Shown one piece after another: positions 55,513 through 62,435 of a stretch of DNA of 64,000 nucleotides (the first letter of the stretch is position 1; each line of letters starts with the position of its first letter). The DNA comes from a virus. Position numbers and translations under genes: made by a program. The DNA is taken from the IMG/VR virus record IMGVR_UViG_3300037010_001573, positions 97,677 through 161,676 of that record; one strand, written 5' to 3'. The notes beneath the pieces are model-generated. The model made no database searches and was not told the origin of the DNA. It saw nothing but the letters and a program-made list of their open reading frames with translations.

Positions 55513-56265
55513 TTATATCCTTACAAACCCTGTATCATAATACTCATTATACAATTCAAGATATATTTTTTTTAATTTTTTAGAAATTTTAGTTATTTGT
55601 GGTGTATCGACATCTATTATTCCTCTAATATAAACATAAAGATATTTTTTTTTAAATATATCTAAAGATTCCGATTTTCTGAATAGTTCTAAAATAGCAT
55701 CAGCTGTTTTAGCATCAAGATCTTTAGGAAATAATTTTATTAAGTTTTTATCGACATATTTAATAAACAAAACCATAAACTCACTTATACTATAATCATC
55801 ATTATAATGAGCGTTCATTGTTTCTTCTTTTATTCTTTTATTTTCATCTACTTCTTCTAAACCTCCTTTATCTTGTAATTTTTGATAATTTTTCTTATTT
55901 TTAGTAATCAAATAACGTTTAGCTATTGTACCAAAATATGAATATGCTTTACCTTTTGCGGGTTTGTACAATCTTAATTTTTCTAAAAGAAAAATAATTA
56001 CTTCCTGTTGTACATCTTCCACCGACTCACCATCCGTATAATAAAACTTGAAAGTATGAATTATATTTTGTGTTAGTTTAAAAAAACCATATTCAATTCG
56101 CTCACGATATACTTTATCTCTAAAAACCTGATCAGTAGATGATACATATTCTATTATAGCGTTTTGTGTATCTTCTGTAAAATATGTATTAGATGTTTTA
56201 GGTTTACGTTTTCTGGGCTTCCCAGATTTAGTTAATTCAATAACTATATTATTTGTCTCTTCCAT
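55513..56265 (-). CDS. Late sigma factor, gp55-like
   Basis: The 250-residue product (T4 gp55: 185) has a sigma-70 region 2-like segment at about 55-125: RIEYGFFKLTQNIIHTFKFY, then VEDVQQEVIIFLLEKLRLY and KGKAYSYFGTIAKRYLITKN. The N-terminus is a basic tail and the C-terminus is helical. It would direct host RNA polymerase to late promoters; the TATTTATA boxes of this window are candidate targets. It is the third gene of a unit headed by an early-type promoter and overlaps the upstream gene by 17 nt. Confidence 0.85.
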   Translation of the reverse strand: MEETNNIVIELTKSGKPRKRKPKTSNTYFTEDTQNAIIEYVSSTDQVFRDKVYRERIEYGFFKLTQNIIHTFKFYYTDGESVEDVQQEVIIFLLEKLRLYKPAKGKAYSYFGTIAKRYLITKNKKNYQKLQDKGGLEEVDENKRIKEETMNAHYNDDYSISEFMVLFIKYVDKNLIKLFPKDLDAKTADAILELFRKSESLDIFKKKYLYVYIRGIIDVDTPQITKISKKLKKIYLELYNEYYDTGFVRI

Positions 56266-59055: not shown

Positions 59056-59057
59056 GT

Positions 59058-59069
59058 TTGTATATACAA
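59058..59069. promoter_or_regulatory. Palindrome TTGTATATACAA, copy 1
   Basis: Perfect 12-bp palindrome directly upstream of the -33-like TTGG of the membrane-protein promoter. An identical copy is 99 bp to the right. Confidence 0.45.
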
Positions 59070-59156
59070 GATATTTTCAAAAAGAAATCGTAGAAAAAAG
59101 AAATTACATTCTATTATATTTTTATCAAAATGGTTTTAAATGATTTTGCGATATAT

Positions 59157-59168
59157 TTGTATATACAA
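59157..59168. promoter_or_regulatory. Palindrome TTGTATATACAA, copy 2
   Basis: Second identical palindrome, in the AT-rich strip between copy 1 and the first GC-rich island. Two spaced copies are compatible with dimer binding and looping. Confidence 0.4.
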
Positions 59169-59189
59169 AATGCATGGGTTGGTTTTCGT

Positions 59190-59470
59190 GGTTTATTTGT
59201 AGATACGCGGCCTTCCATCGCGTCAAATGCGCGCCGTCGATGGACCGCAACGACCGTGGGCCCATTTCGCTAGCACCCCGCGCGCGCTGCGCTAGCGAGT
59301 GAGAGAGTCTGTTCTTTTTCCAGAAAACGGGACCCCTGGTCTTTTTTGCCGCGCGTGTATATTTGTTGTTCTTTTTACCACTCACAACATACAGTCGGGT
59401 TTTTCGGGACCCCTAGATCTCGATCTCTAGTTTCCAGACAACTGGCAATACCCGCCCTTAAATCATCCGT
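59190..59470. other. GC-rich non-coding island 1
   Basis: About 280 bp of visibly GC-rich sequence in an AT-rich genome, full of palindromic hexamers (GCGCGC, GGGCCC, GCTAGC, AGATCT). CGGGACCCCT occurs twice. An 86-codon minus frame covers part of it, but its composition and lack of a promoter argue against a gene. ATTTCGCTAGCA (59264-59275) and CTCTAGTTTCCAGA (59425-59438) recur as inverted copies in island 2. It lies between a terminator and the promoter of the 88-aa gene. Confidence 0.7.
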
Positions 59471-59491
59471 TAACGTGATTAAATTAATGAA

Positions 59492-61114: not shown

Positions 61115-61152
61115 GTTTTTCTAAATTAATTTTAATAATTTACATTAATTTT

Positions 61153-61430
61153 TTGCGCGAGAATCTTGCGTTTAAACGATCGTCTTCTAACAGTCACCTT
61201 CGGCGGTTAGAAACCTATTTCAGGCAACCCTTCCTGAAATTTTTCTCTCATCACGCGCGCGGAATCTCTGGAAACTAGAGGTCTAGAGGTCTAGGGGGCC
61301 TGGGGGGATCTAGAGGTCTAGAGGTCTAGGGGATCTAAGGGGCATAGAGGTCTAGAGGTCTAGGGGGCCTGGGGGATCTAGAGGTCTAGAGGTCTAGAGA
61401 TATGAAGCCCATCTTATGCTAGCGAAATAG
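61153..61430. other. GC-rich non-coding island 2
   Basis: No gene is visible in this stretch. It holds stable hairpins (ATTTCAGG / CCTGAAAT at about 61217-61240; TTCTAAC / GTTAGAA at about 61184-61211), a GTTTAAAC palindrome, GCGCGC, and then the CTAG repeat block. It is bounded on the right by the terminator of the 94-aa gene and on the left by the promoter of the 55-aa gene, so it lies outside both transcripts. This fits a DNA-level element such as an origin or a recombination site. Confidence 0.7.
61275..61401. repeat. CTAG/TCTAGA repeat array
   Basis: Four related blocks, each ending in GAT: 61275-61309, 61310-61334, 61335-61377, 61378-61401. The basic unit is CTAGAGGT, used two or three times per block; blocks 1 and 3 also have GGGGGCCTGGGGG. 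I count 11 CTAG and 7 TCTAGA in 127 bp, although CTAG is usually rare in bacterial and phage DNA. Confidence 0.9.
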
Positions 61431-61455
61431 AAAAGCCTGTCATTTCTGACAGGCT
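61428..61455 (-). terminator. Terminator after 94-aa gene
   Basis: AGCCTGTCA and TGACAGGCT arms with a GAAA loop, then TTTT. Abuts the right end of island 2. Confidence 0.85.
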
Positions 61456-61489
61456 AAACCAACAATTTAAAAAATATAATTACGAGAAA

Positions 61490-61774
<285 letters not shown>

Positions 61775-61810: not shown

Positions 61811-61841
61811 TAAAATTACGAATGATATTTTAGGAAACCAA
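61811..61841 (-). promoter_or_regulatory. Early-type promoter
   Basis: TTGG (61841-61838), 19 nt, TAATTTTA (61818-61811), TTCG before it. The upstream box lies inside the last codons of the 201-aa gene, and no terminator separates the two genes. Confidence 0.72.
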
Positions 61842-62435
61842 ACTTTCATTCAAAAAAAGTCTTTGATAATTGTATTCGGCAACTTTATTTTCAGTAATTA
61901 ATTCGCCATAATTTTTTCTGATTAGAAGGAAAATACTAGATGGATCTTTATCCAACAAAAGAGCATCCCCTAGTAACACAGCAAATGAATTATTTGATTC
62001 GTCCACTTGACTTTGGTTGACCTTATCTAGACCACAATAACTGGCTTCAGTAACTTCTGATACAAACATCCCAGTATAAAATCCCTTCAGTTTACATCTA
62101 TTAACAAATTGATCTGCATTACACCAGATAAAAATGTTATTGTCTTTCTTATCCAACTCCTCAACCATCCAAATATCTATGATGTAACTCCAGACTGGAT
62201 CATCCCAATGGCCTTTTCTGATAGAAGAATCTATGTTAAATTTACCCATTGAGAAAAGACCATTTGGAGAACCATGTCCCATCATTATTACCTGGTCATG
62301 TGTTTTTATTAGTTCCCTGATTTCTTGCTTTCCCATACCCCCTGTTACTAGAGTAACATTTTCTAGTCTTGAGTATATCGGGCGTAAAAAATCAGTTGAG
62401 CGATCATCTGGGTGTATTACTAATATTTTGTGCAT
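61830..62435 (-). CDS. Protein with caspase-like His/Cys pattern
   Basis: The 201-residue product has alternating strands and helices. Strand HDQVIMMGHGSPNGLFSMGK carries H54 followed by G, and a later strand NNIFIWCNADQF carries C105. A strand ending in HG and a following strand ending in Cys is the catalytic arrangement of the caspase-like (clan CD) peptidase fold. The N-terminal MHKILVIHPDDRSTDFLR is also compatible. Activity is unproven, and a non-enzymatic relative or an unrelated Rossmann-like fold is possible. It has its own promoter, so it is probably expressed early. Confidence 0.7.
   Translation of the reverse strand: MHKILVIHPDDRSTDFLRPIYSRLENVTLVTGGMGKQEIRELIKTHDQVIMMGHGSPNGLFSMGKFNIDSSIRKGHWDDPVWSYIIDIWMVEELDKKDNNIFIWCNADQFVNRCKLKGFYTGMFVSEVTEASYCGLDKVNQSQVDESNNSFAVLLGDALLLDKDPSSIFLLIRKNYGELITENKVAEYNYQRLFLNESLVS

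Follow-up and report, generated by a model that had tools for sequence, protein, structure and literature searches.

A lineage-specific CTAG repeat array near a conserved iteron element, a candidate replication origin of uncultured T4-like phages

In the replication origins of iteron plasmids and of phage lambda, direct repeats that are phased on the DNA helix lie next to an AT-rich stretch, and the iterons in these origins are about 18-22 bp. In phage T4, oriE contains 12-nt iterons that are also present in the syntenic regions of relatives, while the role of these iterons is ill defined and their link to oriE activity is unproven according to a review (PMC3016281). An iteron origin can also be the target of a nuclease: Odn of ICP1 is a T5orf172 nuclease, i.e. 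it has a domain of the GIY-YIG superfamily, and cuts the iteron origin of PLE (PMC8263062). Here, we describe two neighbouring non-coding islands in a T4-like phage, one holding a dense array of CTAG repeats that is found in this phage only among those searched and the other holding a conserved iteron element that has sequence in common with the array island.

The window, by which we mean the whole stretch of DNA analysed, covers the final 64 kb of a virus record that is 161,676 bases long. The record is classed as linear, and its ends share an overlap of 180 bases that contains a single indel, in a run of A; because of this overlap, we regard the genome as probably complete, being either circular or circularly permuted. 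The minus strand holds nearly all genes, PHROGs matches include the tail sheath, a T4-type major head protein, the portal, the terminase and baseplate wedge proteins, and a protein with sigma-70 region 2, which is gp55-like by position and family, is encoded at 55513-56265. By this gp55-like protein, the closest named phages belong to the immuto group of Flavobacterium phages. The source is an uncultured T4-like phage with a 161.7-kb genome. At a resolution of 150 bp, this genome of 29% GC contains just two extreme GC-rich non-coding islands, which lie 1.9 kb apart. Island 1 (61146-61475), which holds the array and is specific to this phage, peaks at 58% GC, confirming the description of a non-coding GC-rich island in an AT-rich phage in an earlier note on this DNA, and island 2 (59125-59482, minus strand), which holds the conserved iteron element, peaks at 63% GC.

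The array (61275-61399, plus strand) is built from an 8-bp unit, TCTAGAGG, which is organized in ~34-bp modules and two near-identical ~54-bp halves. The earlier note had described four blocks, each ending in GAT, with a total of eleven CTAG and seven TCTAGA; on recounting between 61275 and 61398, we obtained the same numbers, with CTAG starting at 61275, 61283, 61291, 61310, 61318, 61326, 61352, 61360, 61378, 61386 and 61394 and the TCTAGA sites lying between 61282 and 61398, and the four blocks are evident on reading the sequence. TRF resolved an 8-bp array (CTAGAGGT, 14.8 copies) and a 34-bp array (3.6 copies, score 188), and the module AGAGGTCTAGAGGTCTAG recurs in the array at spacings of 35, 34 and 34 bp. 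The high number of CTAG sites is thus due to tandem repetition of one unit and not to many independent sites; elsewhere in the genome no 124-bp stretch exceeds four CTAG. Because the two halves agree at 53 of the 54 positions aligned, with a single G present or absent, the expansion is, judged by this identity, recent. The idea that CTAG is generally avoided, from which the earlier note had started, has little force in this phage, in which 133 CTAG were observed in the window compared to 149 +/- 13 in shuffles and 278 in the whole genome compared to about 345 expected. We also considered the array island as an RNA element and rejected it because folds on either strand were no better than those of shuffles and Rfam gave no match at the gathering threshold and only chance-level matches below it.

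Moving outward from the array, the left flank of the island contains an imperfect hairpin, TTCTAACAGTCACCTTCGGCGGTTAGAA (61185-61212), and a terminator-like hairpin ahead of the array on the plus strand (61217-61240), while on the other side a terminator-like hairpin on the minus strand (61434-61455) closes the gene at 61490-61774. Because these terminator-like hairpins bracket the array (plus strand, 61217-61240; minus strand, 61455-61434), it is plausible that the array lies outside transcripts, as the earlier note had it. The hairpin at 61434-61455 has a comparable counterpart at the same place in five relatives (L032, L023, L059, L017 and L018), in which the comparable terminator is followed by a gene for a small membrane protein at the position of island 1. 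As side observations on the neighbouring genes, the gene at 61490-61774 contains a perfect 6-bp repeat, CTGTTG, at 61534-61565 that is translated into an alternating Ala-Thr tract, and the 201-aa protein encoded at 61830-62435 (minus strand) has no Pfam match, shares ~43-59% identity across 46 IMG/VR loci and has a GHGS...WCNADQ motif that is kept in the copies read.

Neither the array nor its block was found in relatives by blastn or in two IMG/VR pattern scans, and the array island matched no phage record and no plasmid record. Among the phages searched, the array is unique to this phage and lineage-specific. The absence of a match among plasmid records also argues against plasmid-borne sequence; the earlier note had raised vector sequence as a concern. 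The same note had proposed that absence from all close relatives together with unremarkable surroundings would speak against its reading; while the array was absent from every relative found, with the gene for the small membrane protein in its place in the closest of them, its surroundings are not unremarkable given that a conserved iteron element lies 1.9 kb away. Two sets of candidate counterparts were rejected. A 17-mer, GAGGTCTAGAGGTCTAG, is found in three IMG/VR contigs without similar surroundings; these apparently unrelated viral contigs contain short GAGGTCTA arrays (L005 at 1457, L006 at 1391 and L007 at 871), which we take as chance or independent microsatellites and not as a shared array. 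The second GC-rich islands that relatives have near the element were not accepted as equivalents of the array either, most of them being genes that encode RGRP (AT-hook-like) repeats. In the relatives G001, G002, G004, G005, G006 and G007, GC-rich genes for AT-hook-like proteins in which the RGRP motif is repeated were seen ~2-7 kb upstream of the core of the element.

The conserved object in this neighbourhood is the element in island 2. On the minus strand, it contains a nearly invariant 26-bp core, CCCACGGTCGTTGCGGTCCATCGACG (59235-59260), and three iterons with 11-bp spacing (GCTAGCG, GCGCGCG and GCTAGCG; 59268-59296), for which most relatives have GATAGCG. A pattern search for the core returned 87 IMG/VR contigs, and in 12 of 12 records searched whole, with up to three mismatches allowed, the core was present once per record. 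In the aligned elements, GATAGCG, GCTAGCG or similar iterons occur at the fixed offsets -14, -25 and -36 and often at -46 and -57, giving a lag-11 z of 26.8 for the iteron period across 51 distinct elements, and the consensus order is iterons followed by CCCAyGctAATtGCGGTCCATCGACGG and then AT-rich sequence with TATATAC. This TATATAC is conserved among relatives in an AT-rich flank, although AT-rich sequence also makes up most of the genome. The AT-rich flank in the window also contains TTGTATATACAAA (59157-59169), the reverse complement of a copy at 59057-59069; the palindrome-like TTTGTATATACAA(A) occurs twice in this flank, 100 bp apart, and this pair is a possible operator. Practically no conserved RNA fold was detected in the element (alifold energy about -2 kcal/mol, no covariation, no Rfam match at the gathering threshold). 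On the shoulder of the element, 8-bp GC-rich repeats are present in a small number of relatives, among them L116 (on the same contig as L032); we rejected an 8-bp periodicity of the shoulder as a family-wide property because there was no lag-8 peak and only 7 of the 51 elements showed it individually, one of them being AT-rich.

Judged as iteron origins, the two islands differ: the element has helically spaced direct repeats and is a single conserved locus per genome, which in the window is non-coding, whereas the array has an 8-bp period, no core and only one copy of GCTAGCG. A further feature of the element in relatives is that an ORF of the T5orf172 family lies 0.2-2.3 kb downstream of the core in 41 of the 51 distinct elements (L065-L144, e.g. 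L088, L112 and L124). This ORF is on either strand in places, and some versions are short and lack the nuclease part; the three members of the family that were scanned all score as T5orf172 (PF10544, E about 1e-14 to 1e-15).

The two islands share sequence in inverted orientation. The block TCTGGAAACTAGAGGTCTAGAGGTCTAGGGGGCC at 61267-61300 (plus strand) is common to both, and the block found as repeats in the array is present as a single copy on the upstream shoulder of the element (59407-59438, minus strand). The common sequence can be written as TCTGGAAACTAGAG-n-TC...TCTAGGGG and has an E-value of 2.7e-4 in the genome; the alignment of island 1 with island 2 scores 42, compared to 29 for the best of 1000 shuffles. 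A second, collinear piece, TGCTAGCGAAAT (61417-61428, plus strand), matches the last iteron of island 2 exactly, is ordered in the same way with respect to the shared block and lies at a similar distance from it in both islands (150 and 163 bp); only 2 of 2000 shuffles were as good for this 3' piece. The array island, therefore, shares two pieces of the upstream half of island 2, inverted and without the core, and it looks like a truncated inverted copy of this half in which one block has been amplified.

To evaluate the element as an origin, we rotated eight near-complete genomes to start at the core and calculated skews; because all eight are syntenic, they are not independent. In all eight genomes, the detrended cumulative GC skew reaches its maximum no more than 4.4 kb from the core, and in six of the eight the A-T skew at synonymous sites peaks no more than 1.5 kb from it. 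Taken as a step, this synonymous A-T skew places the core among the top 1-8% of positions, and it clearly exceeds gene-order shuffles in only a few genomes. The polarity is that of a GC-skew maximum, not a minimum, and differs in this respect from a textbook bidirectional origin. Moreover, small, early-type genes give way to late genes at the core, which confounds the compositional shift, and because the core separates the small genes from the late module, we regard the compositional evidence for an origin as moderate only. We identified no initiator gene, which we count against an origin. Based on its anatomy and this moderate compositional evidence, we infer that 59125-59482 is probably an iteron-type candidate origin. 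The replication origin suggested in the earlier note for the array is, therefore, retained as a lead for the region, which has the conserved iteron element and the shared pieces, and not for the array, which is not conserved; that note found the right neighbourhood and not the conserved object.

Our working hypothesis, to which we assign a probability of roughly one half, is that the array is a recent, lineage-specific expansion associated with a partial inverted copy of the element's shoulder and that the element at 59125-59482 is most likely the origin of replication. In this scenario, a protein would bind both the GATAGCG/GCTAGCG iterons, phased at 11 bp, and the 26-bp core next to them, and the strands would open at the AT-rich flank with TATATAC. 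Recombination or repair near the origin would have copied the shoulder of the element into the neighbouring gene slot, this being the inferred direction of copying, and slippage or unequal exchange may then have multiplied the copied block (from 8 to 34 to ~69 bp). The array may retain the capacity to bind the origin protein, although this is unnecessary to explain it. We conclude that the array is probably a by-product of origin-proximal recombination and possibly an accessory protein-binding array. Were the latter the case, a phage or host protein would bind the ~20-bp CTAGAGGTCTAGAGGTCTAG modules and their copy in island 2 and regulate the origin by titration, looping or handcuffing. The regular spacing of near-identical modules at 34-35 bp, the block copy adjoining the iterons in island 2, the insulation of the array by terminator-like hairpins and the occurrence of CTAG at the centre of the iteron GCTAGCG in this phage all fit such a function. 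However, no relative carries the array, its 8-bp period does not match the 11-bp period of the iterons, and recent duplication equally predicts the high identity between the halves, and we consider a functional accessory array unlikely. Somewhat less probable still is a two-part origin in this lineage, in which the conserved iteron + core element, as the start site of replication across a large group of uncultured Bacteroidetes T4-like phages, would be joined by the inverted CTAG modules as an auxiliary array; bound by the same factor, this array would control or relocate initiation, perhaps as a means of escaping the origin-directed GIY-YIG nucleases that relatives encode beside the element. 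This must be regarded as speculative.

For the conserved element itself, the main rival is a transcription control region, in which helix-phased activator sites divide early from late genes and the array is either debris or part of the region. Helically phased repeats upstream of a fixed core would suit an activator array, the element has small genes on one side and the gp55/baseplate module on the other, and composition differs on its two sides; yet, by inspection, the next gene in the window has its own promoter-like stretch ~200 bp further on, and the core is separated from the nearest following gene of 100 aa or more by a variable distance (about 0.15-1.1 kb), making this explanation rather unlikely in our view. 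A single non-coding copy per genome would also be expected of a packaging (pac) site or a site for site-specific recombination, but the terminase genes are tens of kb away and the genome ends in the assemblies are not at the element. T4-like phages package by a headful mechanism without a strong pac site, which we count against such a site, and we judge this reading improbable. That the array is an assembly artefact, with a different true copy number of the repeats or with foreign sequence, has to be considered for a metagenomic contig in which near-identical ~54-bp halves are hard for short reads; given that plasmid and phage records have no match and that the flanks of the array have pieces in common with island 2 of this genome, an artefact is highly improbable. 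Finally, the eleven CTAG sites in 124 bp might suggest a decoy for host proteins that bind or cut CTAG, as the earlier note had proposed. CTAG is near its expected frequency elsewhere in the genome and so gives no sign of CTAG pressure, the number of sites follows from the tandem repeat, and a comparable array was seen in no relative; we found no evidence for a decoy or anti-restriction array, which is the least credible of these explanations.

If the element is an origin, it would be among the few candidate replication origins of T4-like phages other than T4 itself. The element is short, is present once per genome and is widespread among uncultured phages; the array matters less, and it illustrates how repeats near such a site may be copied and amplified. 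Like T4 oriE, the element has short direct repeats at regular intervals (11 bp, compared to 12 nt in T4) at a non-coding spot in a T4-like phage; however, its sequence is different, it has a 26-bp near-invariant core, and there is one core per genome while T4 has several origins. With the origins of iteron plasmids and phage lambda it shares direct, helically phased repeats, here next to an AT-rich flank in a mostly AT-rich genome, but the iterons in those origins measure about 18-22 bp, and we identified no Rep or O protein here. A cultured relative, Flavobacterium phage vB_FspM_immuto_2-6A (immuto), has ~12-bp ACCCGT tandem iterons in a non-coding gap (66.3-66.9 kb) upstream of its gp55-like gene and differs in having no core, its sole weak core match (two mismatches) being elsewhere. 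We count both parallels, T4 oriE and immuto, in favour of an origin. The gap in immuto is flanked by two clusters of ~12-bp ACCCGT/ACCTGT repeats (66317-66420 and 66738-66895; L219/L220), of which we found no discussion in the immuto paper. Compared to the PLE origin, whose iterons are ~30-bp semi-palindromic repeats bound by RepA_N, the iterons of the element are spaced by 11 bp, and the window phage differs from the ICP1/PLE system in that no T5orf172 gene adjoins its element, the genome having one weak PF10544 match elsewhere. The parallel lies in iterons at a non-coding origin, here a candidate one, at which a T5orf172 nuclease is directed in ICP1, and the presence of a T5orf172 nuclease beside the element in most relatives, by analogy with Odn, suggests that origins may be a battleground between phages.
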